DNA of 49,267 nt from a virus: positions 1 through 49,267 of the IMG/VR virus record IMGVR_UViG_3300033148_004560; one strand, written 5' to 3'. This document shows, piece by piece, positions 2,141 to 48,872 of the stretch. The notes beneath the pieces were generated by a model. It saw nothing but the letters and a program-made list of their open reading frames with translations. It had not been told where the DNA came from and ran no database searches. The first letter of the stretch is position 1. Every line of letters starts with the position of its first letter. A program made the translations under genes and the position numbers.

Positions 2141-2925
2141 TGATCACAGTAGACCTATCCGACGCTGCTCTCGCCCTGTACTATGCCACTGGCGAGCACA
2201 TCCCCACGCCCGCCCCGGAGCCCCACGCGTGCGTTCAACTGACTGCCCCTGGTGGCAGCGCTCTAGGCAGGTACGACGCCTCCCAGGGGTGTGTGGTGCC
2301 CCTGCGAGTGCCTGAGGACATCCTCGGCATCCGCGCCCGCAATCGCGAGCAGCGGTTCGCCCTCGACTTGCTCCTCGATGACTCGGTGCAGCTCGTGACA
2401 CTCGTGGGCAAGGCAGGCACGGGCAAGACGCTGCTGGCGCTCGCGGCCGCCGTCTCCCGCACGTCCGCCGGGGCCTACGACCATGTGCTCGTGAGTCGCC
2501 CGATCGTGCCGATGGGGCGCGACCTCGGCTACCTGCCTGGCACCGTGGACGAGAAGCTCAACCCGTGGATCCAACCGATCCACGACAATCTCGCGGCGCT
2601 GCGTGGCGACCACTCAGATCAGGTGCAGGTGGAGCCCCTGACGTACATCCGAGGCCGGTCACTGCCACGTCAGTACCTCATCGTGGACGAGGCGCAGAAC
2701 CTCACGCACCATGAGGTGAAGACCATCATCACGCGGGCAGGCGCCGGGACCAAGGTAGTCCTCACTGGTGACCCCGCGCAGATCGACTTGCCGGGTGTGA
2801 CACGCTCGAACAACGGCCTGTCGATTGTGGCGAGGAGGTTCGAGGGCGTGGCGATCGCGGGCCGCGTGGAGCTGTGCAAATCGGAACGCAGCGAGCTCGC
2901 CGAGATCGCGAGCAACGTGCTATGA
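2137..2925 (+). CDS. phoH: PhoH-like P-loop ATPase
   Basis: 262 aa. Contains Walker A GKAGTGKT (residues 91-98), Walker B LIVDEAQN (181-188) and the family motif LTGDPAQID (209-217). This is the typical PhoH core: an ATPase, probably acting on RNA or nucleic acid. The roughly 60-residue N-terminal part is not conserved in an obvious way. PhoH-like proteins are common in phages and their role there is unsettled. Starts by ATGA overlap (two adjacent ATGs, 2137 and 2140) and ends in ATGA overlap with the next gene. Confidence 0.92.
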   Translation: MMITVDLSDAALALYYATGEHIPTPAPEPHACVQLTAPGGSALGRYDASQGCVVPLRVPEDILGIRARNREQRFALDLLLDDSVQLVTLVGKAGTGKTLLALAAAVSRTSAGAYDHVLVSRPIVPMGRDLGYLPGTVDEKLNPWIQPIHDNLAALRGDHSDQVQVEPLTYIRGRSLPRQYLIVDEAQNLTHHEVKTIITRAGAGTKVVLTGDPAQIDLPGVTRSNNGLSIVARRFEGVAIAGRVELCKSERSELAEIASNVL

Positions 2926-3776
2926 GTATGTCCCGGGAGGAGAGGAATGCGCGCCAACGTGAGCGCCGCGACGCTCGCACCCCGGAGCAGATCGAGCGCA
3001 ATCGGGAACGCACTCGTGAGCGCGATCGGGCGCGCCGCGACGCTCGCACCCCGGAGCAGATCGAGCGAGATCGGGAGCGCGATCGTGAGTGCTATCGGGC
3101 GCGCCGCGACGCTCGCACCCCGGAGCAGATCGAGCGAGATCGGGAACGCACCCCGTGGCAGATCGAGCGCATCCGTGATCGCACCCGGGCGCGCCGCGAC
3201 GCGCGCACCCCGGAGCAGATCGAGCGCGATCGTGAGTGCTATCGGGCGCGCCACGACGCGCGCACCCCGGAGCAGGTTGAGCGCGATCGGGAACGTGGTC
3301 GGGCACGCTACGACGCGCGCACCCCAGAGCAGATTGAGCGAGATCGGGAACGCACTCGTGAGTGCTATCGGGCGCGCCGCGACGCGCGCACCCCGGAGCA
3401 GATCGAGCGCGATCGCGCGCGCCGAAGGTGGTACCGCGCCGCACTCACCCCAGAGCAGATCGAGCGCGATCGTGAGAGCACTCGTGAGCGCCGCGACGCT
3501 CGCACCCCGGAGCAGATCGAGCGCGATCGGGAATGTGGTCGGGAGCGTTACGCTGGGCTGACCTCGCAGCAGGCCGAGTGCGCGCGTGAATACAATCGGG
3601 ACCGCGCCCGTGAGCGCCGCGACGCGCGCACCCCGGAGCAGGTTGAGTATGACCGTGAGCGCGCCCGTGAGCGTCGCGACGCGCGCACCCCGGAGCAGGT
3701 TGGGTATGACCGTGAGCGCGACCATGAACGTTACCTAGCCAAGAAAGAGGAGAAAACCAATGCTGAAGACCGATAG
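2922..3776 (+). CDS. Arg/Glu-rich repeat protein (DARTPEQ repeats)
   Basis: 284 aa. Twelve repeat units are built on DARTPEQIERDRE, ten with an exact DARTPEQ core and two diverged (AALTPEQ, AGLTSQQ). Units are 19-30 aa apart and separated by Arg-rich linkers. Charge is extreme and alternating, consistent with one long helix or a flexible nucleic-acid-binding rod. The DNA is equally repetitive, leaving long open frames in other frames and on the other strand. The ATG at 2922 overlaps the phoH stop (ATGA). No enzymatic motif is visible. Similar TPEQ repeats occur in uncharacterised phage proteins, but no function can be assigned. Confidence 0.8.
   Translation: MSMSREERNARQRERRDARTPEQIERNRERTRERDRARRDARTPEQIERDRERDRECYRARRDARTPEQIERDRERTPWQIERIRDRTRARRDARTPEQIERDRECYRARHDARTPEQVERDRERGRARYDARTPEQIERDRERTRECYRARRDARTPEQIERDRARRRWYRAALTPEQIERDRESTRERRDARTPEQIERDRECGRERYAGLTSQQAECAREYNRDRARERRDARTPEQVEYDRERARERRDARTPEQVGYDRERDHERYLAKKEEKTNAEDR
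2969..3700 (+). repeat. Tandem coding repeats, about 57-100 bp
   Basis: The DNA behind the DARTPEQ units repeats a core close to GACGCTCGCACCCCGGAGCA. Copies have different neighbouring spacer lengths. They are coding repeats, not a CRISPR array: spacers are repetitive and in frame. Confidence 0.8.
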
Positions 3777-4335
3777 AGAATTCCGAGATTTCGCACCACC
3801 ACTGTCCGCCGACGAGCGTGCCGCGCTCGAGTCCGCGATCGCTCGCGATGGGGGCGCACACGACCCGATCATCACATGGCGAGGGTACGTGGTCGATGGC
3901 CACAATCGTTACGAGATCTGCCAGCGCCTCGGTTTGGGGTACGCCACGCGAGAGCTCGGTAGGCCCTCGCGTGACGCGGTGCTGACATGGATCTACGAAC
4001 ATCAGATCGCCCGACGCAACCTGTCCCGTGACCAGCAGATCGCATGGGCGGCACTGCGCGACGTGCCCTACGCTCACCCCTCGCTGATGACGTGGGGGTA
4101 CGCCACCCAGATGGCGACCACGGACGCTGGACGTGAGCTGCTCTCGAAGGTGCTGCGCGGTGTGACTTCGGTGGCGATCGCCTGGAACGATTACTCTCGC
4201 GCGACATGCACGACGACTCGTGCGCGCACCCGTCGGTCCCCAGTGAAGATCGCACTGGACGCTGCCATGCGTCTCAGCCCGACTGACTATGAGCAGTTCC
4301 GTGCCGAGCTGGCCGAATGGGAGGCGTCGCAGTGA
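3760..4335 (+). CDS. ParB/Srx-fold (ParB-like) protein
   Basis: 191 aa. The N-terminal ParB/sulfiredoxin-like domain is recognised from PIITWRGYVVDGHNR (motif DGHNR at 46-50). A helical stretch follows with the ARRNLSRDQ motif (84-92) typical of phage ParB-N proteins. In phages such proteins act as DNA-binding or nuclease-like factors and often accompany methyltransferases or replication genes. Good RBS (AAGAGGAG) before the ATG, which lies inside the end of the repeat-protein gene (17-nt overlap). No partner parA is present, so true partitioning is unlikely. Confidence 0.85.
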   Translation: MLKTDREFRDFAPPLSADERAALESAIARDGGAHDPIITWRGYVVDGHNRYEICQRLGLGYATRELGRPSRDAVLTWIYEHQIARRNLSRDQQIAWAALRDVPYAHPSLMTWGYATQMATTDAGRELLSKVLRGVTSVAIAWNDYSRATCTTTRARTRRSPVKIALDAAMRLSPTDYEQFRAELAEWEASQ

Positions 4336-4922
4336 CGCCCACACGATGGCTCCCGGGCGCCCCTACGCGCCGACCAGAGCTGCATGAGGCCACCCTCACG
4401 ATGAGGTCGCCATCGGTGTGCATCCAGGTGCATGTGGTCTACGAGTCTGATCACGAGCTGGACTGCGAGCCGATCGTGGAGTCCGCACTTGGCGGCCGCT
4501 CCATGGTCCTTGGCCCGGACGGGAGCGTGTCCGCGCACGCGCTGCAAGACCTCAGCGTGAGGGCGCGTACTGCGCTAGTGCGGTACGTGCACGTGCTCGC
4601 GGCTGAGGTGGTGGAGGTGAGCAAGACGCCAAGGACACGCTGGATGCCCGGCGCCCCTACGCGCCGCCCAGAGCTGCATGAGGCCACCCTCACGATGTCG
4701 GCGCCACTGCTGCGCCTACAGGTGCGGGTGGTATATGAGTCCGATCGTGAGCTGGATTGCGAGCCAATCGTCGTATTCGCGATCGGTGGTCGCCATGTGC
4801 CCTTAGCCTTGGACGGGAGGGTGACCGTGCACGCGCTGCAGGACCTCGGTGCGAGGGTGCGTGCCGTAGCATCGCGGTTCGTTCACGTGCTCGTGGCGGA
4901 TGTGGTGGAGGTGGCGAAGTGA
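4332..4922 (+). CDS. Hypothetical protein with internal tandem duplication
   Basis: 196 aa, GTG start (GTGA overlap, GGGAGG upstream). Two copies of a roughly 98-aa domain lie head to tail. Each begins with R-W-(L/M)-PGAPTRRPELHEATLTM, contains VVYESD.ELDCEPIV, and ends with VHVL.A(E/D)VVEV.K. The halves differ mostly in the middle. The beta-rich pattern has no recognised family. Function unknown. The arrangement suggests recent fusion of a duplicated gene into an intramolecular dimer. Confidence 0.8.
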   Translation: MTPTRWLPGAPTRRPELHEATLTMRSPSVCIQVHVVYESDHELDCEPIVESALGGRSMVLGPDGSVSAHALQDLSVRARTALVRYVHVLAAEVVEVSKTPRTRWMPGAPTRRPELHEATLTMSAPLLRLQVRVVYESDRELDCEPIVVFAIGGRHVPLALDGRVTVHALQDLGARVRAVASRFVHVLVADVVEVAK

Positions 4923-5317
4923 CCATGCAGCTCAGCATCGAATGGGCAGGGCATCGCGCCATGTGTATCGGGGGTGGCTCGTGGGTGCACGTTACGGCGG
5001 TCCCAGGTGAACCCGAGGCCGTCGATATGGCGCTAGCGCGTCTGTGCTCAGCTGGGATGGTGCAGCGCCAGGGTGATGAGTACCAGGTCACAACTGCGGG
5101 GCGCCAGGCGCGTGTCTGTGACGTCGCGGATGCGCTGCGCCCGCACACTGAGGTGGGGCGGTTACGCGCGAGGCTGAGGAGTCGTGGGCTAACCCGGGCC
5201 CACCTTGCCCAACAGGTAGTGGAGGCCAAAGACCGCGAGCGTGCATCCCGTAGGGCGGTCACTACGGCTATGAGCGCCCTAGAGGAATTTGACGCGCATA
5301 CGGTGCGGACGTCATGA
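4919..5317 (+). CDS. Putative winged-helix protein
   Basis: 132 aa from a GTG at 4919 (GGAGG 7 nt upstream, GTGA overlap); an ATG at 4925 is the alternative. Residues about 40-65 (ALARLCSAGMVQRQGDEYQVTTAG) resemble the recognition helix and wing of a winged-helix domain. The C-terminal half is helical and charged. The domain call is moderate; the function is unknown. Confidence 0.7.
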   Translation: MTMQLSIEWAGHRAMCIGGGSWVHVTAVPGEPEAVDMALARLCSAGMVQRQGDEYQVTTAGRQARVCDVADALRPHTEVGRLRARLRSRGLTRAHLAQQVVEAKDRERASRRAVTTAMSALEEFDAHTVRTS

Positions 5318-6267
5318 CTCCCACACCGCGTATCCCCTGGCGGGAGGAGGCCGCCATCGTCCAGCGCGCCCGCGATGGCGATCGGGGGGCCCAAGCCAGG
5401 CTGCTGACATCTGTGCTCCGACTCGTGAGGCGTGACGCCCGCCATTGGGCTGGCGATCTAGACGATCTCGTGCAGGAGGGTCTGATGGGTGTGCTGCATT
5501 CGATCCGGCGGTACGACCCCGCTCGTGGACGCTGGATCACGTACGCTGGGGTATGGTGGCGCGAATGGATCCGCCGAGCTAGCCACCGAGCGCTAGCCCA
5601 GGGGCGCAGCGGTGTACACGGCATCGTGCGGGCGAGGCGCTACGAGCTGCGTCAGGCGCTGACTGACCTCGAGCTCCACCACGACGGGGATGTATCCGCC
5701 GAGTTGGCGGCGAAGACCGGTGTGCGCCTCGACATCGCGGCGGGGTACATCGCCCTGCAGACCCGCGTGCTGTCCACTTCACTTCCCGCCCCGGGGCTAG
5801 ATGACGGTGAGGGGAGCCAGTGGATCGACTCCTTCGCGGGGCACGGCCCTACACCAGAGGATGACGTGTCGGTGGCGGAAGAGGCCCGTGAGCTGCGCGC
5901 GTGCGTCGATGGCCTACCATCCATCCTGGGCGATGTCATACGGTGGAGGTACCTCACATCACCCCCGTTGACCCATGACGCAATAGGCCAGCGCATACAT
6001 CGGACACGACAGCGGTCCTGCCAGTTGGAGAGCCAGGCATTGGCGCTGCTCCGGCTTCGCTGTCAGGCGACGGCGGGCACCATGGGCGGGCGGATCCTGA
6101 CCTTCTGCGCGGCCACATCATCGGGGACGGTCTCGGTCGGCTTGGACGTGTTCGACTTCACGTCGACGTGCTTCCACGCGCGCCAGCGGCCTCGGTTCCC
6201 TGCTCCGGGGGAGAAGGTCATGGTCACCCTACGGGCTGGCGCGGTCTTGGTGATCCACGCCGACTGA
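5314..6267 (+). CDS. Sigma-70-family-like factor
   Basis: 317 aa. Region 2 is visible at about 48-90: DLDDLVQEG, RYDPARGRWITYAG, then WWREWIRRA, matching the core-binding and -10 recognition helices. A region-3-like helix is at about 118-150 and a region 4 HTH at about 200-246 (LTHDAIGQRIHRTRQRSCQLE). It probably redirects host RNA polymerase to phage promoters. Residues about 250-317 are an extension beyond region 4 and lie exactly opposite the leftward ORF 6063-6332, so the true C-terminus deserves a check. ATGA overlap with the previous gene. Confidence 0.82.
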   Translation: MTPTPRIPWREEAAIVQRARDGDRGAQARLLTSVLRLVRRDARHWAGDLDDLVQEGLMGVLHSIRRYDPARGRWITYAGVWWREWIRRASHRALAQGRSGVHGIVRARRYELRQALTDLELHHDGDVSAELAAKTGVRLDIAAGYIALQTRVLSTSLPAPGLDDGEGSQWIDSFAGHGPTPEDDVSVAEEARELRACVDGLPSILGDVIRWRYLTSPPLTHDAIGQRIHRTRQRSCQLESQALALLRLRCQATAGTMGGRILTFCAATSSGTVSVGLDVFDFTSTCFHARQRPRFPAPGEKVMVTLRAGAVLVIHAD

Positions 6268-6332
6268 GTGCCGTAGATCGTCACTTTGGCATCCGATCCG
6301 GCGCCCAAAATTGTCACCCAAATCCCCCGCAT
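6063..6332 (-). CDS. Leftward small basic protein opposing the operon
   Basis: 89 aa. Codon use is natural and third positions are GC-rich. The sequence looks folded (VTILGAGSDAKVTIYG, then WRAWKHVDVKS), and it is basic. It overlaps the sigma-like gene tail-to-tail by about 205 bp. The two frames share wobble positions, so composition cannot decide between them. It is the only leftward gene in the left arm and faces away from 6480 across a gap with a perfect dyad. A repressor or antagonist role is conceivable but unproven. Its RBS is weak (GTGGGG). Confidence 0.45.
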   Translation of the reverse strand: MRGIWVTILGAGSDAKVTIYGTQSAWITKTAPARRVTMTFSPGAGNRGRWRAWKHVDVKSNTSKPTETVPDDVAAQKVRIRPPMVPAVA

Positions 6333-6345
6333 AAAACCCCACTTA

Positions 6346-6361
6346 GTGAACTCACGTTCAC
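6346..6361. promoter_or_regulatory. Perfect dyad, operator candidate
   Basis: GTGAAC and GTTCAC flank a 4-bp centre (TCAC). It lies 14 bp upstream of the leftward gene's ATG and in the divergent gap before 6480. The location fits an operator. Confidence 0.4.
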
Positions 6362-6403
6362 GATCCACCGCGCGCAAAACGTCACCACGCAAATATTGCA
6401 TAG

Positions 6404-6426
6404 CTCGTAAGTGTGCGGAATCATTG
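6404..6426. promoter_or_regulatory. Second copy of the 23-bp control motif
   Basis: Identical at 21 of 23 positions to 820-842. It lies in the divergent gap between the leftward ORF 6063-6332 and the rightward gene at 6480. Confidence 0.45.
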
Positions 6427-6468
6427 CGATGTCGATTTATCCAGCGCTTGGCATCCCCATTGCATTGT

Positions 6469-6474
6469 AGTCTT
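6469..6474 (+). promoter_or_regulatory. TANNNT box before an SD-less start
   Basis: TAGTCT ends 6 nt before the ATG at 6480, and no Shine-Dalgarno is present. This suggests a leaderless transcript. TTGGCA lies 14 bp upstream of the box, too close for a standard -35. Confidence 0.3.
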
Positions 6475-6479
6475 GCATC

Positions 6480-6683
6480 ATGACGAACACGAACAACACC
6501 GCCATCCACGCCCTCCGCAACGAAGCCTCCGCCGCAGGTGACGACGCCATGATCAGCACCTGCTCCGTCGCTCTCGACGAGTACAACGATGAGACTGAGT
6601 CCTACCCCTCACCGGGGGAGCGTGCAGAGGCACTGTACGCCATCGCCGACGCCCTCGCAGCCGCACGCGCCTCGGACTGCTAA
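6480..6683 (+). CDS. Small acidic hypothetical protein
   Basis: 67 aa, acidic and helical, starting MTNTNNTAIHALRNE. Not recognised. It is first in a rightward unit after the divergent gap and probably leaderless. The MTNT opening is shared with the protein at 7660. Confidence 0.6.
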   Translation: MTNTNNTAIHALRNEASAAGDDAMISTCSVALDEYNDETESYPSPGERAEALYAIADALAAARASDC

Positions 6684-6697
6684 CATCGCCCATCCCG

Positions 6698-6741
6698 ACC
6701 TCGCCCGGTAGCCCTAGCGGTTCCGGGCCACAGGTCGTATG
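6698..6741 (+). promoter_or_regulatory. RBS-sequestering leader hairpin, copy 1
   Basis: Stem GCCCGG/CCGGGC (6703-6708 with 6723-6728) closes a 14-nt loop, TAGCCCTAGCGGTT. Below it, ACCT (6698-6701) pairs with AGGT (6732-6735), the likely Shine-Dalgarno of the next gene. The ATG starts 10 nt after the upper stem. The same geometry recurs twice downstream. Confidence 0.7.
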
Positions 6742-6939
6742 ACACACGAAGAGAAGCGGCGCATGATCCTCGCCCTCGCCTACAGCGTGGCACTCTCGGA
6801 CCATATCGGTGACGTCGACGACGACGTGCGCGTGGCGGCCAGGCGGGCAGGCGTTGAAATACCTGAAACAGATGAGGGGGGTTTTGATGCGGCCGCTATC
6901 AGTAAGTCAGGGATAGAGTCTTTTTGGGAGGAGTTCTGA
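6739..6939 (+). CDS. Small acidic hypothetical protein
   Basis: 66 aa, not recognised. Helical and acidic, with a VDDDVRVAARRAG stretch. Its translation start is set by the leader hairpin, whose lower stem contains the AGGT ahead of the ATG. Confidence 0.65.
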   Translation: MTHEEKRRMILALAYSVALSDHIGDVDDDVRVAARRAGVEIPETDEGGFDAAAISKSGIESFWEEF

Positions 6940-6952
6940 CGGTCGGCATCCC

Positions 6953-6996
6953 ACCTCGCCACGTAGCCCTAGCGGTTCGTGGCCTGAGGTCGTATG
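6953..6996 (+). promoter_or_regulatory. RBS-sequestering leader hairpin, copy 2
   Basis: Stem GCCACG/CGTGGC (6958-6963 with 6978-6983) surrounds the same 14-nt loop. Relative to copies 1 and 3, two base pairs change on both sides (C-G to A-U and G-C to C-G), so pairing is kept. The lower stem ACCTC/GAGGT (6953-6957 with 6986-6990) buries the Shine-Dalgarno. The ATG is again 10 nt after the upper stem. Confidence 0.75.
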
Positions 6997-7602
6997 AAGT
7001 ACTACACCGCCGACGAAGTAGCCTTAGTCATGCACGTGTCAACGAGTACCGTGCGCTCATGGATCCGAGCTGGGCTACCCACCGTGGACATGCCGATCGT
7101 ACGCAGTGTCGACCTGGACGCCTGGGTGGTCGCGAGGCCCCCTGCGCCCGCAGGCCCCACACCCGAAGGGCTCGACATCCTACGTACGCTCAGGAGTACA
7201 GACGAGTGGATGTCACGCCGGGGGTTGGGGGCCTGTGGGGCCCCACGGATTGCACAGGCACTGGACCGACTGGTAGACGCGCGGTTAGTGCAATTTTGGT
7301 GCCAGGAGTACGCTCTGACATGTGCTGGCCGTACCGCATCGTACGAGGCCGCATGTGATGCGCTATGCGTCACCCCGGAGGAGAATCGTCCTTGGTCCCC
7401 TGCGGTAGAAGCGGGTGTGTCGATGCTGACTGGGCGCCGGTCCCCACACCGAGGTGCACCCGCCTGTGTGGCACTACGGGCGCTACGTTACGCGGGGTAC
7501 ATCCGGGACGGAAAGCCGACCGAGTCTGGGCGACAGGCCTCCTCTGCCGATGTGGAATCCGCGCTGGGCGAGTGGGAGCGCCGGGTGCGGACCCAGAGCT
7601 GA
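6994..7602 (+). CDS. MerR/excisionase-type HTH protein (paralogue of 1111-1716)
   Basis: 202 aa. The N-terminal HTH YYTADEVALVMHVSTSTVRSWIRAGLPT is followed by a DLDAWVV segment, the standard end of an excisionase-like wing. The middle and C-terminal parts hold two possible winged-helix stretches (about 65-110 and 145-190). Likely DNA-binding regulator. It shares architecture with the first gene of the early operon but is clearly diverged. Start set by leader hairpin copy 2. Confidence 0.75.
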   Translation: MKYYTADEVALVMHVSTSTVRSWIRAGLPTVDMPIVRSVDLDAWVVARPPAPAGPTPEGLDILRTLRSTDEWMSRRGLGACGAPRIAQALDRLVDARLVQFWCQEYALTCAGRTASYEAACDALCVTPEENRPWSPAVEAGVSMLTGRRSPHRGAPACVALRALRYAGYIRDGKPTESGRQASSADVESALGEWERRVRTQS

Positions 7603-7618
7603 CATCGCCATCACCTCC

Positions 7619-7662
7619 ACCTCGCCCGGTAGCCCTAGCAGTTCCGGGCCACAGGTCGTATG
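7619..7662 (+). promoter_or_regulatory. RBS-sequestering leader hairpin, copy 3
   Basis: Stem GCCCGG/CCGGGC (7624-7629 with 7644-7649), loop TAGCCCTAGCAGTT (one change from the other copies). The lower stem pairs ACCT (7619-7622) with AGGT (7653-7656). The ATG is 10 nt after the upper stem. About 50 bp around it closely match copy 1. Confidence 0.7.
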
Positions 7663-8202
7663 ACGAACACCTACACAACCGCACATGCCGACCTTGGATG
7701 GTGGACCTTCTGTCGCCGATCCCCGATCCGTAATGGTGAGCCTCGGCTGGTCGCCTCTCGGCACGAGTACGGCTGGGAGCCCGCACGCGAGCGCACACCC
7801 CGTGAGGGCTACACCTACGCCTGTCGCCACACATCAACTAAGCCCGGTGGCCCCAAGTCCGCAGAGTGGCAGTACTGGTCTCTGTGGCGCAGGCCTACCC
7901 GCCTGGTAGAGCTAGGCGCGCTGTTGCCCGCGCTGGCGGAGCTGTCGATATCCCGCTGGGATGCGATCGCGTATCGCATCCAACGGACGGGGGGCACAGG
8001 CTTCGATCGCGCCCGACTAGAGCGCGCACACGGATGGGGCGGGCGCGCGTCAGCGCAATGGACTGACGCCATCCGCTGGTGCGCCGGGGGTGAGTACGCG
8101 CGAGCCAAGCAAGCACTGCGCGATGCCCTCGCACCCGCCAAGGGGTGGGGCCACGGCGCTGCGGAGCGTGAGGCGCTGGACGCGATCGGAGTGATGGCAT
8201 GA
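7660..8202 (+). CDS. Hypothetical protein
   Basis: 180 aa, Trp- and Arg-rich, starting MTNTYTTAHADLGWW. The C-terminal half is helical (ARAKQALRDALAPAK). No family recognised. Third gene under a leader hairpin; ends in ATGA overlap with the next small gene. Confidence 0.7.
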   Translation: MTNTYTTAHADLGWWTFCRRSPIRNGEPRLVASRHEYGWEPARERTPREGYTYACRHTSTKPGGPKSAEWQYWSLWRRPTRLVELGALLPALAELSISRWDAIAYRIQRTGGTGFDRARLERAHGWGGRASAQWTDAIRWCAGGEYARAKQALRDALAPAKGWGHGAAEREALDAIGVMA

Positions 8203-8907: not shown

Positions 8908-9720
8908 GTCCGCCGTAGCCCGCGCATACCGGGCCCTACCTGCGTCCGTATCCGGACACCCACCATGCAGCCACTCTTGCTGCGACTCGACCCACCTAGC
9001 CACCCGCGTTTGATCGCGCTCGGTCAGGGGTGACTCGCATCGTGTATGCGCGAGCTCACATGCAGCCGCGTCGCGCTCGATCATGATGCAGTCGCGACCC
9101 AGCAGTCGGCAGGCTAGGCCCGTGGTGCCCGACCCGGCGCATGGATCGCACACCAGATCACCGACGTCGGAGAACCACGACACGAGTGACAGCATCAGAT
9201 CCAGGGGCTTCTCGCAGCTGTACTTGTCCCGGCCGCGAAGCGATTTCTGATCGAACGCGGTTAGCGATCCTGGCCCAGACCAGTGCTTGCGGCCGCTCGC
9301 GTGCCACATCGTAATCATCTCGGCGCCCGACGGTGGACGATCGCCGGACAGCTGCGGCTGTGACCATCTCACCCAAGGCACGCTGCGGATGTAGTCCACT
9401 CGCGTGAGCTTAGGCTCGTCGAACGCGCGCGAGCGCACGTCCCGCTCTACCGCCTGCCTCCACAGGTGCGCGGACTCGAGGTCGGAGAACACCGTGGACC
9501 ATCGCGATGCATGTCCTATCAGTCGGGCGATGTCCGCCATCATGGTACCGTCCAGCGCGGCGAACCCCAGGTCACGGTTGACTGGCCCGACACCAGCAGT
9601 GCCGTTGCTAGTGGCGCGGTCATGCACCCTATCCGCATAGGGTGGGTCCGTTATCACGGACGCGATCGGCGCCGCGAGCAACGTGGGCATGGCCGCGTGG
9701 AGGTCTGCATGTACGATCAC
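8872..9720 (-). CDS. DNA N4-cytosine/N6-adenine methyltransferase
   Basis: 282 aa from a GTG at 9720 that overlaps the upstream stop (GTGA). The frame is open further upstream, but that part matches no domain. The catalytic motif TDPPY is at 24-28 and the SAM-binding motif DPCAGSGTTG at 192-201. This order (catalytic first) is that of beta-class amino-methyltransferases. It probably modifies phage DNA against host restriction. No cognate restriction enzyme is adjacent. Target sequence unknown. Converges with the early operon. Confidence 0.88.
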   Translation of the reverse strand: MIVHADLHAAMPTLLAAPIASVITDPPYADRVHDRATSNGTAGVGPVNRDLGFAALDGTMMADIARLIGHASRWSTVFSDLESAHLWRQAVERDVRSRAFDEPKLTRVDYIRSVPWVRWSQPQLSGDRPPSGAEMITMWHASGRKHWSGPGSLTAFDQKSLRGRDKYSCEKPLDLMLSLVSWFSDVGDLVCDPCAGSGTTGLACRLLGRDCIMIERDAAACELAHTRCESPLTERDQTRVARWVESQQEWLHGGCPDTDAGRARYARATADLDAATVGIQLG

Positions 9721-16842: not shown

Positions 16843-17424
16843 TTAGGCTGTCTGGTGCTCGTTGTCTGGCACTGAGCCGAAGGTCAGATTGCGGAAGTAG
16901 TCCCCGCTAGGAGTGGACTTGCCGCGCGCAACGCGGATGTCCACGAGCCGCCCAACGAGTGAGGGTGAGCCGTTCTTCTGGCCCTCGGTGGCGTCCAGGA
17001 TCGCGCCGGAGTATCCACTACGCTTAGCCTCGAGATCCTCGAGTGCCTGCCATCCCTCGGCGAACAGATCGCCTGTGCTACCCGCGTTGATCTGCGCGAG
17101 TGTGGGGCCGTATCCAGCCGCGTGCACTGCGAGCTTGCGCAGCTCAGTCAGGCCAGCGGGGGTGACAAAGAACAGCATGATTGCGTCGGTGTCTGCAGGG
17201 GTTGCACTGCCCTCGGCGGCGGACTCGATGTGCACGGTCACCTTGGTGTATTCCTTGTAGGTCTTGGGCGACTTGCCTGGGACCATTGACACTACGCGAG
17301 CGCGGTACTCGCCCTCAGAGATCATGTCGTCACGATTCTGCGGACACTGGATACCTCCGTAGCGCGATCGCTGGGGGGCGGTGGCGGGGGCGGCGGCTGG
17401 TGTGTGATTTCCAAACGATGTCAT
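16843..17424 (-). CDS. Putative ssDNA-binding replication protein
   Basis: 193 aa. The N-terminus carries QRSRYGGI (18-25), shared with the nuclease at 12342-13061. Then a beta-rich core follows: GEYRARVVSMVPG, KVTVHIES, AIMLFFVT, and a late GRLVDIRVARGK...YFRNLTFG segment. These patterns resemble phage OB-fold-like ssDNA-binding proteins (DUF669-like), but the match is by eye. Position next to PolA supports it. RBS AAGGACGC. Confidence 0.55.
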   Translation of the reverse strand: MTSFGNHTPAAAPATAPQRSRYGGIQCPQNRDDMISEGEYRARVVSMVPGKSPKTYKEYTKVTVHIESAAEGSATPADTDAIMLFFVTPAGLTELRKLAVHAAGYGPTLAQINAGSTGDLFAEGWQALEDLEAKRSGYSGAILDATEGQKNGSPSLVGRLVDIRVARGKSTPSGDYFRNLTFGSVPDNEHQTA

Positions 17425-23738: not shown

Positions 23739-23855
23739 TTAGTCGACAGCGTCACACGAAGCCAATGCATCCAGCGTGCCAACCAAAATCCCCAATGTTT
23801 TCACGACCAGACCAAACGTGGCTACGCAAACGACGACACCCACAGCGGGGAGCAT
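23739..23855 (-). CDS. Possible 38-aa membrane peptide
   Basis: Starts MLPAVGVVVCVATFG, continuing as a hydrophobic stretch that could span a membrane. No RBS and no overlap with neighbours. It covers the 19-bp motif shared with 221-239, so the conservation may be regulatory rather than coding. Weak call. Confidence 0.25.
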   Translation of the reverse strand: MLPAVGVVVCVATFGLVVKTLGILVGTLDALASCDAVD

Positions 23856-35574: not shown

Positions 35575-37527
35575 TCACTGCACCACTGTCACGGTGTTGA
35601 TTGTGTGAATGGTCCCGCGCAGAGTGATCGTCAGTACGCCATTCATGATCGGCTCGGGGATATTGTATAGATCGTCGGCACCCGCGACCCACTGCACGTT
35701 GCTCACGCGTGGACCCTCGCCTTCCTTATTCGCCATCATGTCGTTAGCCAGCGACGTGTTGACGAAGGATTCGATTTCCTTGAGCGATGCGCTTGTCGCC
35801 GTGCCGTCGGAATTCAGGATCAGGCTACGCCCGATCGCATCCTCTGTGGCAGCTTGGCACACTGCGCGTGCACGTTGCACGACCGCTGTATTGTGCGTCT
35901 GCACGAGCAGCGAGGAGTCATCAGCGCGGGTCAACGAATTCGCGATGAACGCTCCATTAGGCCCATTCGCCCACGACCGGAACGAAGTGAATCGAGCTGC
36001 GCTAGCGGCGCCTCCGTCCACACGATCGTCATACTCGGTGAGCTGTCCTTCACTGTCATATAGGCTCCACCCGGTTGGGCCGTCGGACTTGCGCCACGTG
36101 TCAATGTGCAGGTCGTGGCGGTACTCTCGCAGGCTCGCAGCCCATGCAGCGGGCGCCCGGAGATGCCATGTCGAAAACGTTGAGAACTTGCGCGCCTTAC
36201 CAGCGGACAAGTCGATGTGATGGTCGCCGTCGATCGTCGAGAACTCGGATGTGATGGCGGCCATCCACACGGCCTTGGTCTGTCCGGCAGCGACTGTCGG
36301 CACCGTGATGCCGATCACTTCGTCGGCGAGGTCGGTGGACTCAAACGTGATCGTGGTAGCGGTAACAGCGGTAACCGTAAACGTACCATCGTTCGACGCA
36401 GTGTCTGCGAACGTGACGGAGTCCCCAACGCGGAAGCCATCGTCCAACCAAGACCCGGGCGAGCCACCCGCACGGATGACAGTGTCTGCTGAATCACTGA
36501 ATGTGAGCGAGGGCTCACCAACGATCGACACGTTCGACACGGGGCCCTCATCCGTCAGGTCGTCGGTGTCAAGGGTGATGACGGTAGCGCTCGTGACTGT
36601 GCACGTCGTGGTGTGTACCGCGTTGTTCGAGGTGGATCCGGTTACGGTCAGTAGATCGCCAGTGGCGAAGCCGTCGCTAGTCCACGATCCAGTGGCGCGT
36701 GTGATCGTGTCGCCCGTCGCGCCAACCTCTGCGAACGTAACTGCAGTAGTTGACATGCGATGCGTGACACTCGACAGCGTCGCCAGGGGCAACCGGTCGA
36801 GCACGCTAGCGCGACCGTAGATGAACCTGTCATCCGAGGTCTCGTAAGCGTTGAGCAGCACGAGCAGCGCGGCAGCTTCCGCGTCGGTCTGCAGGTCCCC
36901 AAGGAACATCGCGGAGCGAACCTGACGAGCTTGCGCGGCGAGGCCTTCGAACGCCGATGTCCAACCAGCGGAGCCCGCGAGCGGACCGGACCCGTGCCAC
37001 GTATGCACCGTGTCGCCTGTGACCAACGTCCCGGCTGCGAAGGATGCTGTCGCGCCGAAGTACGGGATCACATAGCTCGTGGCTGTCCCAAGACGGATAC
37101 GCTTCTGTGATGTGCCGCCGTCCATTGATAGACCCAGGATGATTTGGTCAGAGCCGATCGTCCCGCCGGTGAGCACCACGAGTACGCCGTCGTGCTCCAT
37201 TAGCACGCCGTCGGAACCGGCAGTAACGGTCGTCACAGACGTTCCACTGTTGCCGCTCGTGTCGTGGCGTCCGATCACGCCGGGTGTCGCGATCGGGATA
37301 CCGACGAACAGCATCGAATTGCCCGTCTCCTCGGAATGGTAATTCGCGTATTCGACTCCCTCACTATACCCATGCTGTGCATAGATCGCGGAAGCGGATC
37401 CATACAGACGCGGGACAGCGTCAGCATTACTGGGGACGGGAGCGATCACGGTGATCAACTTCGCGCCGCCGACGGACGCGGACGCACCGGCGGCTAGTGT
37501 GTTACTCGCACCAGGCAACGTTGCCAT
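35575..37527 (-). CDS. Contractile tail sheath protein
   Basis: 650 aa, longer than Mu gpL (~495 aa). Sheath hallmarks: an N-terminal GGAKLITVIAPVPSNADAVPRLYGS, and LAAQARQVRSAMFLGDLQTDAEAAALL. The C-terminal part has TTLRGTIHTINTVTVVQ-type strands. Two extra Ig-like or beta insertions rich in Thr/Val/Asp occur at about 265-415. RBS GGAGGT before ATG. Confidence 0.88.
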   Translation of the reverse strand: MATLPGASNTLAAGASASVGGAKLITVIAPVPSNADAVPRLYGSASAIYAQHGYSEGVEYANYHSEETGNSMLFVGIPIATPGVIGRHDTSGNSGTSVTTVTAGSDGVLMEHDGVLVVLTGGTIGSDQIILGLSMDGGTSQKRIRLGTATSYVIPYFGATASFAAGTLVTGDTVHTWHGSGPLAGSAGWTSAFEGLAAQARQVRSAMFLGDLQTDAEAAALLVLLNAYETSDDRFIYGRASVLDRLPLATLSSVTHRMSTTAVTFAEVGATGDTITRATGSWTSDGFATGDLLTVTGSTSNNAVHTTTCTVTSATVITLDTDDLTDEGPVSNVSIVGEPSLTFSDSADTVIRAGGSPGSWLDDGFRVGDSVTFADTASNDGTFTVTAVTATTITFESTDLADEVIGITVPTVAAGQTKAVWMAAITSEFSTIDGDHHIDLSAGKARKFSTFSTWHLRAPAAWAASLREYRHDLHIDTWRKSDGPTGWSLYDSEGQLTEYDDRVDGGAASAARFTSFRSWANGPNGAFIANSLTRADDSSLLVQTHNTAVVQRARAVCQAATEDAIGRSLILNSDGTATSASLKEIESFVNTSLANDMMANKEGEGPRVSNVQWVAGADDLYNIPEPIMNGVLTITLRGTIHTINTVTVVQ

Positions 37528-38510: not shown

Positions 38511-39139
38511 GCGATGCCCCCATACGTGCGCCAGGGGGACGCGGTAGTAGTGGATGTACGTGCGCTTCGTTGCGCAGTCGGAGGAGCGTTCTCGCCACGG
38601 ACAGGGGCGTTGCGGGCCCACCGCTCAACACGCTTCCGGGCCGCATCGTAGATCGTAGTCAGCGAGACTGACTGTCCTCCGGTGCGCGCCAGCAGATCGG
38701 CGGCAGCAAGCTCCGCTGTCGTCATCCGGATAATGTCCGCAACCGGATCCTCTAGTGGGATCACATGCGCGGGCAGCATGTCATCGATCATGCGTGAGGC
38801 TTTGGCGATCGCGGCGGTGACGGGCATTGGAGCGAGCACCAAAAATGTGGTGCCCGTAGTGGTCAGGTTGATCGCGGCGCCGCCTTCCGATGCCGCGATC
38901 TGAAACGCCCAGTCGCTAGACGGGATGGCGTAATAGGACGTTCCCTCCGCTACGGGCGAGGGCAGTCCGCCGCCACCAGCGGTGCGGAACTGAAGCTCCG
39001 CATCCGTCTCAAATCCGTGTGCGTCAAGTTCAAAAGTATCGCCCGACACGCTAACCGAATCCACAAGCCTACCAGGCGACGCGAGCGCGCCACGCGGTAG
39101 ACCATATAGGTACAGGTCAGCTGCCAAGCAGTACGTCAT
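38507..39139 (-). CDS. Head completion protein (Mu gp36/DUF1320-like)
   Basis: 210 aa. The C-terminal half has the DUF1320-type pattern (AKASRMIDDMLPAHVIPLEDPVADIIRM, then LAAADLLARTGG). A beta-rich segment (about 25-105) appears inserted after the first 20 residues (MTYCLAADLYLYG). Connects capsid and tail. ATGA overlap with the major head gene. Confidence 0.7.
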   Translation of the reverse strand: MTYCLAADLYLYGLPRGALASPGRLVDSVSVSGDTFELDAHGFETDAELQFRTAGGGGLPSPVAEGTSYYAIPSSDWAFQIAASEGGAAINLTTTGTTFLVLAPMPVTAAIAKASRMIDDMLPAHVIPLEDPVADIIRMTTAELAAADLLARTGGQSVSLTTIYDAARKRVERWARNAPVRGENAPPTAQRSARTSTTTASPWRTYGGIA

Positions 39140-40194
39140 GGTGTGAGATCGATCCGGACAATCGCATGTGGGAGCGCTGCAGTAGCGGCCGCGCGAATGA
39201 CGAACTTGACACCAACGAGTCCACTGTTCTTGTACAACTCGTCAGTCTTGTCGTATCGGATCTCCTCAGGTGACCCGCGCCGCTGCACAACCCATGGTGG
39301 TGGAGTCATACCACCCGACTTCACACCAAACGCGTATACAATATCCTCATCGCCGGAGTTGCCCGAGGGCAGCGTGCCAGTGAGCTCATCCGCGACTGTG
39401 ACCGGAGTCCCGAAGTGCCTATTCGGCATGACACCGGCAGCGACATTCTCCGACCCGGCAACGTTCTGCAATGCCTCGAGAACCACGTTGCGGGAGAACG
39501 CATCCAGCGCATCCTCCTCATGTGCGGCCGACACCAAGAACCCACCGAAGCGCAATCCCATCGGTCTACCGTTCGGGCCTTTGATCGATCGGAAATGTCG
39601 ACGGCACTGCGATACCAGCGTTGCGTTCAACACTGCGGGAACCGTCGCACCCTGCACTGTGTCGCCTGCATCCCAGTCGTTGTCGAACGTCCCGAACCCG
39701 GAGTCGAGCACGTTCTGTGGGTGATCCGCCGCGAACAGCGCGCGTGCACTGGCGACCGACCCGCCGGGGTACTCGACGCGGTAGAAGTCCAGATTCGGAT
39801 TGGAGTTGAGCATGTCCGCTACGAGCACGTTCGGGTGACGCAAGGCTTCCATTGCCATCGCGGCGGGCTCATTCGACCAGCCGATGAAGTCCCCTGTGTC
39901 CGCCTCGAGGATGTCGGCCTTCTCGTAGACGCCGTCGTACCACTCGAGAGGAATCATAGACAGTGAGCGCTCGTACAGCCGACGCATCTTGTCGTCGCCG
40001 TCGCGCTTCTGGTATCCCGCCGTGGACAGTGGGATCGGGAACGTCGTCCGGATCGCGTCGCTCACGTGCGTGGTACCAAGTAGACTAGACCATTGATCAA
40101 TGTCGCCTAGAGCGAAGGCCTTGTCAAATTGTGACGAGAAATCCGTCAGCGCGATTTGCACATCGCGTGGCATCAAGTGGTAAATCGAGGGCAT
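39136..40194 (-). CDS. Major head protein (Mu T-like)
   Basis: 352 aa, RBS GGAGATG. Pattern of Mu gpT: a helical start with FSSQFDKAFA, then MIPLEWYDGVYEKADILEADTGDFIGW, and VADMLNSNPNLDFYRVEYPG. The middle contains ALFAADHPQNVLDSGFGTFDN and RFGGFLVSAAHEEDALD. Slightly longer than Mu gpT (~305). Forms the capsid shell. Confidence 0.88.
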   Translation of the reverse strand: MPSIYHLMPRDVQIALTDFSSQFDKAFALGDIDQWSSLLGTTHVSDAIRTTFPIPLSTAGYQKRDGDDKMRRLYERSLSMIPLEWYDGVYEKADILEADTGDFIGWSNEPAAMAMEALRHPNVLVADMLNSNPNLDFYRVEYPGGSVASARALFAADHPQNVLDSGFGTFDNDWDAGDTVQGATVPAVLNATLVSQCRRHFRSIKGPNGRPMGLRFGGFLVSAAHEEDALDAFSRNVVLEALQNVAGSENVAAGVMPNRHFGTPVTVADELTGTLPSGNSGDEDIVYAFGVKSGGMTPPPWVVQRRGSPEEIRYDKTDELYKNSGLVGVKFVIRAAATAALPHAIVRIDLTP

Positions 40195-42403: not shown

Positions 42404-43993
42404 ATGAACACACAACTGACACAAGAGCGAATCGATGAGATCCAAAGCGTTGTATCCGAGCATGGACTGCGCAAAACATCTGAGGTACATGGCGTGTCAA
42501 TCGGCACACTACGCCGTGCCATCCGAGGCAAAGCCCTGTCGAAAAAAATCGTCGCGGCGCTAGGTAATGTGCCAGCGAGCAAGCGCACGGCCAAGGACTT
42601 CCCCCGCGCGCCGAAGGTGGTTCCCCCTCAGTCACGGGACACCTCGCTGTCGTGGTCGCTCGCAATGATCCGTGCAGCGATCGAAGCGCAAATGGTCGGG
42701 AACTTCGCTACCCCTAAACGGCTAGCAGAGGCCATGCGCCGAGACGATGCGATCTTCGTCGCACGGTCGAACCGCATCGCACCGATCCAGAGTGTGGCCA
42801 CGCGGATCGTTCCACAGGACTCGGACCGTGGACGTGCGCTAGCTCGCAAAGCGCCTGGGTCCGTGACCATCTCACGTACCACGCTCACCGGCCTGACAGG
42901 CACGCTGGTAGACCACGCGGTCGCCATCGGATACAACGGCCACACCACGAACGACAGCGGCACTCGAATCAACTTCAGCCTGCGCGAGTGGCCTATCGAA
43001 CACGTTAGTTGGAACCCCTCCACTGAGACGCTGGAGACGCAGACACGGGACGGGGTGACTGTCCCGATCGTGCATGGCGACGGACGCTGGACGGTCTTCC
43101 GTCGCTACGCGGAGATGCCATGGCGCGAGGATGCTTGCCTCCTACCTGCGGCGTTCGTCTGGGCAGCGCATGCCGAAGGCGTAAGCGACTGGGCATCTGG
43201 ATCACGCGCGCACGGCCTCGCGAAAATCATCGGCGAGCTACCAGAGGGCAGCGGGATCAACGACGTGAGTGGAGAGCTGGAGACAGACGCAGACGAGTTT
43301 CTGAAAATGATGGCAGACATCGCGAATGGCGACAGCCCCGCAAATATCAAGCCCCGTGGCAGCGTTGTCGAGTTCATGTCGTCGAACAGCAATGCATGGC
43401 AGGTCTTCAAAGAAAATATCTTGTCGAGAGAGAAGGCCGCCGCGCGAATCTACCTCGGCACAGACGCAACGCTAGGCTCCGTCGGTGGCGCTCCGGGCGT
43501 CGACATCGCCACACTGTTCGGGGTGCTGACTACGAAGATCCAAGGTGACTTCGCGGCGATCGAAGCGGGGCTACTGTCGGGCGTGTACGAGCCTTGGGCA
43601 GCGATCAATTTCGGTGACAGTCGCTATGCGCCACAGCTCGAACTGCTGCTACCGGATCCGGATGAAGACCTCAACCGCAAGCAAGCCGCAGAGAACCGCA
43701 AGCTCCTATCGGAGACGATCGCGAGCATGCGCGAGCAGAAGCTTGAAGTCACGCAAGCGACAGTGGAGCGCGTGGCAAACGAACTGGGTGTGGAGCCTAC
43801 GCCGAGGCTCGCGGCGATCGATCAACAGGTCGCTACTATCGAACTCGCGCCTACCGATGTTGCAAAGGTGGTACTCGTCCGCGAAGCGCGCAGTGCACAG
43901 GGCCTGCCCCCGTTGGGGGACGCACGGGACAACATGACGATCACTCAGCTAGACGCTTTCGTCGCGGCGCAATCAGCAACGGCTGGCGCATGA
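42404..43993 (+). CDS. Portal protein (Mu gp29-like) with N-terminal HTH
   Basis: 529 aa. From about residue 80 it follows the DUF935 portal family: SWSLAMIRAAIEAQMVGNFATPKRLAEAMRRDD, then REWPIEHVSWN, HAEGVSDWASGSRAHGLAKIIGELPEGSGIN, and VEFMSSNSNAWQVFKE. The extra N-terminus (about 8-50, LRKTSEVHGVSIGTLRRAIRGKALS) looks like a helix-turn-helix DNA-binding domain, which portals do not normally carry. No SD; TAAGTT 9 nt upstream. ATGA overlap with the large terminase. Confidence 0.85.
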   Translation: MNTQLTQERIDEIQSVVSEHGLRKTSEVHGVSIGTLRRAIRGKALSKKIVAALGNVPASKRTAKDFPRAPKVVPPQSRDTSLSWSLAMIRAAIEAQMVGNFATPKRLAEAMRRDDAIFVARSNRIAPIQSVATRIVPQDSDRGRALARKAPGSVTISRTTLTGLTGTLVDHAVAIGYNGHTTNDSGTRINFSLREWPIEHVSWNPSTETLETQTRDGVTVPIVHGDGRWTVFRRYAEMPWREDACLLPAAFVWAAHAEGVSDWASGSRAHGLAKIIGELPEGSGINDVSGELETDADEFLKMMADIANGDSPANIKPRGSVVEFMSSNSNAWQVFKENILSREKAAARIYLGTDATLGSVGGAPGVDIATLFGVLTTKIQGDFAAIEAGLLSGVYEPWAAINFGDSRYAPQLELLLPDPDEDLNRKQAAENRKLLSETIASMREQKLEVTQATVERVANELGVEPTPRLAAIDQQVATIELAPTDVAKVVLVREARSAQGLPPLGDARDNMTITQLDAFVAAQSATAGA

Positions 43994-45402
43994 TCTCGCC
44001 GCTGCATGCGCTCGCGTTCATGCACCCAGAAGCATTGGACGCCATGTCGCCGGAAGACCTCGCGCTGCTCGCATACTCGCCAGGGATGTCGCTACGACCG
44101 GAGCAAGTCATACCACCTGGCAACTGGCGCTCGTTCGGCTACGCGACCGGACGCGGATACGGCAAGACCCACGCAATCGCATGTGAGATCAATCGACGTG
44201 TCGCGTCCGGTGAATGCATGCGTCCCGCGCTCATGGCTCCTACCTCGGACCGGGTAGACGATGTGCAGGTCGCGGCGTTGCTGGAGACGGCCACGGTGGG
44301 CTGTCAGTGCGTCGAATACGAGGGTGGAGTGAGATGGGAAAATGGTGTCACCGCTGGCGCGCTCACTGCGGAGATCGAGCGGCCAGCGTCGGGATCGAAT
44401 TTCGATCTGGTGTGGATGACAGAGATCGTCCGCTGGAATCCGAACACGCGCATGCTTGCGTTTCGTGATGTCACGACCGCGTGCCGTCTGGGGCGCCGCC
44501 CGCAGTTCCTGTGGGACACTACGTCCAGCGGGAAGAACGATGTGATCCAATTCCTGCTAGCGCAGCACGATACGGATCCGGATACACACCGAGTAGTGCG
44601 CGGGACCATGTTCGACAACCCGCTACTGCCTCGTCTGTACCTACGTGAGGAAGCGCGCAAGTACGTACGCGGGACTCGACAGTACGACGAGGAAATCCTC
44701 GGACTCGTGTTCACCGAATCCGCCGGAGCGCTGTGGGTGCAAGACTGGATCGATGCACGGCGCGTGCACGCCGCGCCCGGGGCGTACGTCGTGGCGGTGA
44801 TGGGGCTGGACCCCGCGCTGTCAGGCGACAAGACCGCCGACGAAGTCGGGCTCGCCAAGGGCTACCGCACTGCGGACGGCCACATATATCTGACCGACCT
44901 CAGCGATCGAATGTCGCCTGAGGACTACGCCGTGATCGTGGTGCGCGAGTGCCGCAGCGATTGCTCGGGCGTCGTGGTCGAACGCAACCACGTAGGGCAG
45001 CATGCCCGCGATCTGATCCGCGTGCACGCCAAACTCGCGGGCATGCGGGTCGAGCTGCTACCTGATCCAAAGCTGCCATTCCCCGCGCGTAGACCGGGCA
45101 CCATTTTCATCCGTGAAATCGTGTCACACACGGCCAAGGAGACGCGAGCGGCGCCAGCAGCGGCACTCTACAAGGCAGGAAAGGTGCACCATATCGGGAC
45201 ACTGGCGCGGCTGGAGAACGAGCAGACAACGTGGGAGCCAGGGACCCGGCGGTCCCCGAACAGACTGGACGCAGCGGTGTTCGCCATCAGCGAGCTGGGC
45301 AACGTGACGCTGGCTACACCTAGGGATGCGCACGCGGACATATCGCGAGCGCGTCTGGCGGCAGAGCGACTGCGGCATTCGATCGGGCAGCGGGTGCTAT
45401 GA
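43990..45402 (+). CDS. Terminase large subunit
   Basis: 470 aa. Walker A GRGYGKT (54-60). The Walker B region is LVWMTEIV (140-147), where the usual Asp is Thr (T144) and the Glu (E145) is kept. Nuclease-type motifs follow: MGLDPALSGDKTADEVGLAKG (D274), VVVERNHVG, and RLDAAVFAISEL. Pumps and cuts DNA with the portal. It ends convergently with, and 6 nt inside, the leftward gene at 45397. Confidence 0.88.
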   Translation: MISPLHALAFMHPEALDAMSPEDLALLAYSPGMSLRPEQVIPPGNWRSFGYATGRGYGKTHAIACEINRRVASGECMRPALMAPTSDRVDDVQVAALLETATVGCQCVEYEGGVRWENGVTAGALTAEIERPASGSNFDLVWMTEIVRWNPNTRMLAFRDVTTACRLGRRPQFLWDTTSSGKNDVIQFLLAQHDTDPDTHRVVRGTMFDNPLLPRLYLREEARKYVRGTRQYDEEILGLVFTESAGALWVQDWIDARRVHAAPGAYVVAVMGLDPALSGDKTADEVGLAKGYRTADGHIYLTDLSDRMSPEDYAVIVVRECRSDCSGVVVERNHVGQHARDLIRVHAKLAGMRVELLPDPKLPFPARRPGTIFIREIVSHTAKETRAAPAAALYKAGKVHHIGTLARLENEQTTWEPGTRRSPNRLDAAVFAISELGNVTLATPRDAHADISRARLAAERLRHSIGQRVL

Positions 45403-48082: not shown

Positions 48083-48409
48083 CTACCATCGCACCGGCGG
48101 CGGGGGCTCGCGCCCCAGCGAGAATTCCATATTTAGCCCAGTCGGGCGCCGGACGGCTGCCGCGCGCAAGCGGCGGATCTCGTGATTCGCCATCTCCAGC
48201 GCACCAGCGCGATGGGCATCCGCGAGCGCCTCCCTCACCTCTTCGAGCTCGCGTTTCCACCGGGCGAAAGCGTGCTCCCGGCGTAGGAGATCCGCAGCCG
48301 CCATCTCACGTAGGATGTGCCGCTTGCGTTCACGTAATTCCTGTACGGCAGTCATCGCGGCCTGTACCGCTCGCCTGACCACACGCTCGTACTCGAGATG
48401 GTTAGCCAT
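48083..48409 (-). CDS. Coiled-coil protein built from duplicated blocks
   Basis: 108 aa from ATG 48409. MANHLEYERVVRRAVQAAM (shared with 48869-49150) is joined to VQELRERKRHILREMAAADLL and FARWKRELEEVREALADAH (shared with 48352-48642). Ends with PPPPVRW. The RBS before the ATG is weak. The exact DNA identity of its parts with neighbours marks recent duplication and reshuffling. Confidence 0.55.
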   Translation of the reverse strand: MANHLEYERVVRRAVQAAMTAVQELRERKRHILREMAAADLLRREHAFARWKRELEEVREALADAHRAGALEMANHEIRRLRAAAVRRPTGLNMEFSLGREPPPPVRW

Positions 48410-48631
48410 CTGCCGATCCACTTGGTGCTGGAGACACTGGCACCGGGCGCGGCGATCGCCGCGCGCAAGCGGCGGATCTCGTGATTCGCCATCTCCAGCG
48501 CACCAGCGCGATGGGCATCCGCGAGCGCCTCCCTCACCTCTTCGAGCTCGCGTTTCCACCGGGCGAAAGCGAGATCCGCAGCCGCCATCTCACGTAGGAT
48601 GTGCCGCTTGCGTTCACGTAATTCCTGTACG
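48159..48631. repeat. Direct repeat A (48159-48347 and 48458-48631)
   Basis: Two copies about 299 bp apart are identical over 174 bp except for a 15-bp gap (five codons) in the second. Identity without synonymous change indicates a very recent duplication. Confidence 0.9.
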
Positions 48632-48642
48632 TGGGTGCTCAT
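48352..48642 (-). CDS. Truncated duplicate of the coiled-coil protein
   Basis: 96 aa from ATG 48642 (ATGA overlap). Residues 5-61 copy the 48083-48409 protein, minus five residues (LRREH). After RLRAA the frame runs out of register over the next gene's start for 34 residues, giving a novel tail. Probably a recombination product; it may be a decaying copy. Confidence 0.45.
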   Translation of the reverse strand: MSTHVQELRERKRHILREMAAADLAFARWKRELEEVREALADAHRAGALEMANHEIRRLRAAIAAPGASVSSTKWIGRWLTISSTSVWSGERYRPR

Positions 48643-48872
48643 GATCGATCCAACGCAGCGTGCATCATGGCACGGACAAATCTCCTACGTTCCCCAGGGG
48701 GGAGCGCCGCGATCCCTGCCGATACGTCCTCAATGTACGCTAGGGATACGGTCCGGATGCAGGATACCTTGCGTTGCAGATCGCGTTCGCGTTCAACGGA
48801 TTCATCCAGCATCTCCTTCAGCTGCAGGCACTTGGTCTCTAGCGCGAATACTTCATCTGCCGGTGGGCTCAT
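48639..48872 (-). CDS. Small coiled-coil protein
   Basis: 77 aa, helical (LETKCLQLKEMLDESVERERDLQRKV), then a RRFVRAMMHAALDRS end. ATGA overlaps on both sides. Function unknown. Confidence 0.6.
   Translation of the reverse strand: MSPPADEVFALETKCLQLKEMLDESVERERDLQRKVSCIRTVSLAYIEDVSAGIAALPPGERRRFVRAMMHAALDRS

Follow-up and report, generated by a model that had tools for sequence, protein, structure and literature searches.

The start-associated sequences (SAS) and ESAS of cluster K mycobacteriophages are repeats found in wide spacers, where they lie right before the start codon of a non-structural gene (PMC3203893). The SAS is a 13-bp asymmetric repeat found in 11–19 copies, while the ESAS has 17-bp inverted repeats for which the authors found little support as mRNA hairpins; the function is unknown (PMC3203893). 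Other repeated, partly intergenic phage elements include the 17-bp dyad repeats of cluster O and the stoperators of cluster A (PMC4351075). An RNA-level mechanism has been established for T4 gp43, which represses its own mRNA via an operator hairpin that precedes the start codon by about 40 nt (PMC3014915).

Here we compare with these systems a repeated element found in a 49,267-base virus record of an uncultured phage, the whole of which was analysed and is referred to as the window. A gene for a sigma-70-family factor precedes a cluster of + strand genes (starting at 6480, 6739, 6994, 7660, 8199, 8369 and 8710), and three intergenic spacers of 55, 54 and 57 nt, which separate genes 6480/6739, 6739/6994 and 6994/7660, are mutually homologous. 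The homology runs approximately from the stop codon to the ATG and ends there. The features of this region are given below; bit scores come from a covariance model built from the known copies themselves and are not independent evidence.

5314–6267: sigma-70-family factor gene, preceding the + strand cluster.
6448–6464, + strand: sigma-54-like promoter match TTGGCATCCCCATTGCA (by consensus match only), upstream of the cluster, with ATG 6480 15 nt further on.
6684–6738, + strand: spacer element copy 1 (6679–6743 and 7598–7664 are 90% identical; 77.6 bits).
6696–6700, + strand: 5′ side of the outer helix of copy 1, CGACC, predicted by folding to pair with GGTCG at 6733–6737, overlapping AGGT.
6703–6728, + strand: hairpin copy 1, GCCCGG-TAGCCCTAGCGGTT-CCGGGC (28-mer minimum free energy −17.2 kcal/mol).
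6739–6939, + strand: target gene 1, 66 aa, without a family match.
6940–6993, + strand: spacer element copy 2, from the repeat comparison (76.5 bits).
6958–6983, + strand: hairpin copy 2, GCCACG-TAGCCCTAGCGGTT-CGTGGC, with two compensated pairs.
6994–7602, + strand: target gene 2, 202 aa, with a weak HTH_17/MerR-like N-terminus under the Pfam cut-off.
7603–7659, + strand: spacer element copy 3, from the repeat comparison (83.1 bits).
7624–7649, + strand: hairpin copy 3, GCCCGG-TAGCCCTAGCAGTT-CCGGGC, with the top pair of the inner stem lost.
7660–8202, + strand: target gene 3, 180 aa, without a family match.

From this neighbourhood we infer that the three target genes are early genes. Searches for relatives of the 202-aa HTH protein and of the sigma factor found none. 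The products of 1111–1716 and 6994–7602 (both + strand) are apparently paralogous, with similar HTH_17-like N-termini (YYTxxEVAxVxH...VRxWIRxGLPT); the gene at 6994–7602 sits behind a hairpin and that at 1111–1716 behind a sigma-54-like site. Exact sigma-54-type matches (YTGGCAY-N5-TTGCW) number two, at 1082–1098 and 6448–6464 on the + strand, each with an ATG 12–15 nt past it, an arrangement that would make the mRNAs nearly leaderless. With up to one mismatch, six matches were observed in the window versus 1.24 expected, and near-identical sites TTGGCACGC[C/T]GGATGCA at 221–237 and 23766–23782, both on the − strand, have one mismatch to the pattern.

The places, spacing and sequence changes of the three hairpins were as given in the preliminary description of this DNA when checked against the sequence. 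In each, a perfect stem of 6 bp encloses the conserved 14 nt, and the 10 nt that follow (CACAGGTCGT in copies 1 and 3, CTGAGGTCGT in copy 2) lead to the ATGs at 6739, 6994 and 7660. The hairpin that had been taken as the repeat is real, but it does not repeat alone: the repeated unit spans the entire spacer, stop codon to ATG. Copies 1 and 2 have the same head and the same tail, GGTCGTATGA, and the stem is among the most altered parts. With up to two mismatches allowed, the 14-mer occurs three times in the window versus 0.20 expected (no shuffle reached three), and nowhere in the window beyond the three spacers.

Four relatives, G001–G004, were gathered via the capsid-like and helicase proteins. 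G001 (IMGVR_UViG_3300025009_000176), an uncultured phage, is collinear with the window phage and mostly 50–70% identical to it in protein sequence (DNA polymerase 59%, helicase 67%, capsid-like protein 69%); G002, G003 and G004 are more distant, with helicase identities of 59, 52 and 50%. The window record and these four constitute a tailed phage group with a Mu-type portal, a tape measure, a Pol I-type polymerase and a helicase. The capsid-like protein (39136–40194), the 35575–37527 protein and the primase/helicase proteins gave no matches in 50,697 phage records, and the 35575–37527 protein gave no relative in genome contigs either; the group is without a close isolate among the phage records searched. 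Target genes 1–3 have no homologues among G001–G004. A fourth copy of the hairpin was found in G001:

L024:1731–1756 of G001, sense strand: hairpin copy 4, with the copy-2 stem and an identical 14-nt head.

After this stem TTGC replaces CTGA and a GGTCGT tail follows, and the outer helix is re-paired as CGAUC/GGUCG although the Shine-Dalgarno (SD)-like AGGT has changed to CGGT. The gene downstream is OB-fold ssDNA-binding-protein-like, and the DNA polymerase (polA) gene comes next. The ATG (1801) of the ssDNA-binding-protein-like gene is positioned 45 nt past the stem and has its own AAGGA, accessible and at normal spacing, with an opening cost near the median. A GTG (1765) directly past the element is in frame with this ATG and may be the start instead; the N-terminus of the homologues begins near the ATG, the start that has the AAGGA. 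The window homologue of this gene is 16843–17424; a five-member model of the protein (mean pLDDT 72) has its best matches in the OB-fold ssDNA-binding protein PrgE (E 6e-5) and in DUF669 proteins of phages. The two phages carry the element at unrelated positions. Each of the four copies immediately precedes a gene, on its sense strand, and the three window copies share their ATG spacing. G001 also carries another start-associated repeat, GGAACGGAG...CACGATGACCACCAA(A/G)CTACG, at 36551–36587 and 37326–37360, which in two genes, including the ParB-like one, takes in the ribosome-binding site and the first codons.

The element is so far known from four copies in two phages. An exact 14-mer scan of 2.9 million viral contigs returned 100 matching stretches, and among the matching records compared only G001 keeps the six-pair stem and the start-site tail, the others looking like chance. 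Scanning the viral contigs for the loop plus GGTC gave G001 and one stemless match only, and the loop plus GGTCG was absent from genome contigs. A relaxed-head scan gave G001 and five chance matches, one of which pairs fully but lies inside a 598-aa ORF. Among the four relatives only G001 has the hairpin, which is absent from G002–G004 both by pattern and by the covariance model; the four copies from which the model was built score 70–83 bits and the next best match 16. A weak match to the model at 9234–9293 of G002 (E = 0.13) was rejected, its head being different. No relative showed a retained loop with broken stems: every loop conserved in front of a gene comes with a conserved stem. A low-identity search with the element against 50,697 phage records and 72,556 plasmids found none, and Rfam 15 gave no match at the gathering threshold in the window and none up to E = 10 in 6600–7700, so the element can still be called undescribed within the Rfam and literature searches made. 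Antisense partners for the head in the window and G001 were the element itself and a single 10-mer in G001.

The 14 nt had been viewed as an open loop. Folding instead predicts, for copies 1 and 2, the 6-bp stem, a bulged U, a 4-bp AGCC/GGUU helix with one G-U pair, and a CUAGC pentaloop; in copy 3 the top pair of the inner stem is missing. An outer helix is formed by CGACC/GGUCG or, in copy 2, ACCUC/GAGGU, and these alternatives overlap. At stem positions 4 and 5, copies 1 and 3 have C-G and G-C, while copy 2 has A-U and C-G; the chance of such compensation, taken as two random substitutions in the 3′ arm of copy 1 matching the 5′ arm of copy 2, is p = 0.0075. Over the four copies 97.5% of inner-helix cells pair and two pairs change on both sides, versus no such pairs in slid controls, and in five related phage genomes a 14-nt loop closed by a Watson-Crick 6-bp stem has a frequency of 5.7e-4 per position. 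The covariation first reported is therefore present as two compensated pairs, but only two stem alleles underlie them; copy 2 and G001 have an identical stem and hence are not independent compensations. Over 56 nt, copies 1–3 have folding z-scores of −4.2, −2.8 and −1.3, the last being weak. No terminator was found by a terminator search and no U tract follows the hairpin, in agreement with the earlier view that this is not an ordinary terminator. A compensated stem around an invariant loop supports an RNA structure.

The hairpins had also been proposed to bury the ribosome-binding sites. The cost of opening positions −15 to −1 is 20.3, 19.4 and 14.8 kcal/mol for copies 1–3; in 50 other window genes the median is 6.65 and the highest value 15.1, and only one of them reaches the copy 3 value. 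For the SD proper (−10 to −4) the costs are 7.7, 6.4 and 4.4 kcal/mol (median 3.25), which is high for copies 1 and 2 and ordinary for copy 3; 16 of the 50 other genes equal or exceed copy 3. Start-region occlusion in the window phage is thus computed for all three copies, as proposed, but it is not supported as the core function, the G001 start being free. Of the pairing described between an upstream ACCT(C) and (G)AGGT, the placement of AGGT within the outer helix stands; this AGGT, 3 nt before the ATG, is however a weak SD-like sequence, and the pairing overlaps the alternative CGACC/GGUCG. Start-site burial is not a fixed property of the element, because the G001 copy leaves the ATG's own ribosome site accessible, and the conserved feature is the hairpin rather than SD burial. 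A hairpin that needs no binding factor, setting a low fixed translation rate or answering helicases or ribosome traffic from the upstream gene, would suit the strong predicted occlusion of copies 1 and 2 and their weak SD, and the very GC-rich stems speak against a thermometer. We consider such an attenuator unlikely, since it explains neither the conserved 14-nt head on a varying stem nor the G001 copy, which occludes no normal start.

We favor the prediction that the element is an RNA operator recognised through its loop and serving a small regulon in trans, and give it an even chance of being correct. An invariant head, an exchangeable stem, a sense-strand position and a fixed ATG distance are what an RNA operator predicts; the 14-nt head is identical in three of the four copies with one change in the other, and at two stem positions one Watson-Crick pair has given way to another. 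The copy in G001 speaks for something that binds, and against simple SD sequestration as the common function. The bulged hairpin would act in cis, with a trans-acting factor reading the sequence of its 14-nt head, and the stem would need only to pair, not to hold particular bases. Over each window start site the folded or bound hairpin would block ribosome loading, so that three genes of one + strand cluster might be held down or switched together, while the G001 copy, in the leader of the ssDNA-binding-protein-like and polA genes 45 nt before the ATG, would act only if bound. Here we presume transcription as one mRNA, the existence of a factor, its identity, and the direction in which it acts. 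The earlier suggestion that a phage protein may bind via the loop is plausible; no RNA-binding partner was found, and one candidate is offered by phylogenetic profile:

3760–4335, + strand: ParB-N-like protein, candidate partner from its phylogenetic profile only.

Three window ORFs are present in G001 but not in G002–G004, namely this gene and two short tail-region ORFs. The ParB-like protein is a lead from five genomes and resembles DNA-binding ParB. More tentatively, the element may belong to a new RNA-protein operator system in which one regulator reads the UAGCCCUAGCGGUU hairpin and coordinates start-site access in both phages, a proposal we hold as doubtful; its targets, proposed with similar reserve, would be several small genes in one phage and the ssDNA-binding protein and polymerase genes in the relative. 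Start-associated phage repeats had been without a mechanism, and the compensated stem changes and fixed head of this one would allow the RNA operator idea to be tested with short reporters; should a tailed phage prove to have a loop-specific RNA-protein pair, it would also serve as a useful orthogonal tether.

Other repeats were seen in these records. The + strand ORF 2874–3776 encodes an Arg/Glu/Asp-rich protein without a family match that contains many copies of a 19-residue (57-nt) repeat (RRDARTPEQIERDRER...), and the + strand ORF 4317–4922 holds two 279-nt copies that are 77% identical. Overlapping direct repeats lie by the contig end at 48143–49027 (205 nt at 90%, 103 nt at 98%). In G003 (IMGVR_UViG_3300033429_000009), minus-strand segments 43967–44026 and 44471–44533 are 84% identical and resemble tRNA 3′ halves (GGGTGGGTTCGACTCCCACCC).

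A double-stranded DNA site, operator- or stoperator-like, at which a DNA-binding protein of the phage (for instance the ParB-like product of 3760–4335) would bind, is quite unlikely in our estimate. The inverted repeats are intergenic, HTH genes lie within the same cluster, and the ParB-like gene is common only to the two element-bearing phages, but this last link is drawn from five genomes and the two short tail-region ORFs have the same profile. Moreover, for a DNA operator one would expect conserved arms and a position at a promoter, whereas here the core is conserved yet asymmetric and the symmetric arms co-change, the opposite of a dimer site. Every copy is on the sense strand, three are at a fixed ATG distance and none is at a promoter; the lack of a copy in the promoter region 6268–6479 fits RNA, not a transcription operator. 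A recombination boundary, a shared spacer where start regions or gene cassettes swap and the hairpin is incidental, would account for homology running almost exactly from stop codon to ATG, for the similar opening codons of genes 6480 and 7660 (ATGACGAACAC), for target genes without homologues in the relatives, and for the unrelated element positions in the two phages. We judge it very unlikely as the sole explanation, since homologous recombination would favor identical arms and the arms here differ yet pair. The cassette-boundary reading may nonetheless explain the stop-to-start homology, and both readings may hold because a regulatory spacer can serve recombination too. There is likewise only a slim chance of a transcript-level element, either antitermination of the nut/put type or an mRNA processing or stability hairpin. 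A conserved-head hairpin before genes, with the G001 copy preceding replication genes, would suit it, but antitermination needs no three copies in one cluster, and no lambda nut-type boxA (YGCTCTTTA) was found upstream of the hairpins, the sole boxA-like match being at 1095–1103, with one mismatch and away from them. A stem of about 10 bp is also short for RNase III, which counts against processing. An N4-type virion RNA polymerase promoter was dropped, as the largest ORF is 787 aa.

Returning to the RNA operator and the systems it can be set beside, the likeness to SAS/ESAS is in repetition and position before start codons, together with the inverted repeats of the ESAS; the sequence is unrelated and the stem changes of the present element are compensated. 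The SAS 13-bp sequence GGGATAGGAGCCC occurs in the window at chance level (9 matches with up to three mismatches versus 13.8 expected) and at none of the three starts, which upholds the original analogy of position with a different sequence. By analogy, the closest established case in mechanism would be the T4 gp43 operator: in T4/RB69 a leader hairpin likewise presents a conserved head, and the distance of about 40 nt resembles that in G001 before the ssb-like and polymerase genes. The loop there is UAAC/UAAA, while here it is CUAGC within the head UAGCCCUAGCGGUU; the polymerase here is of Pol I type (phrog_17), not T4 gp43, and the window element is not near it, so that neither a UAAC-like loop nor a T4-type DNA polymerase leader is found. 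Coat-protein operators of the MS2/PP7 type are short-looped hairpins that overlap a start site and have one base bulging from the 5′ strand. The present element shares the 5′-strand bulge, the short loop and the start-site overlap, but it belongs to a dsDNA tailed phage, the bulged base is U, the loop is CUAGC and there are three copies; to our knowledge, no coat-protein homology to MS2/PP7 is to be expected. The cluster O and cluster A elements are alike in being repeated and partly intergenic, with dyad symmetry in cluster O, where the arms are invariant and the center varies, whereas in the present element the center is invariant and the arms co-vary.
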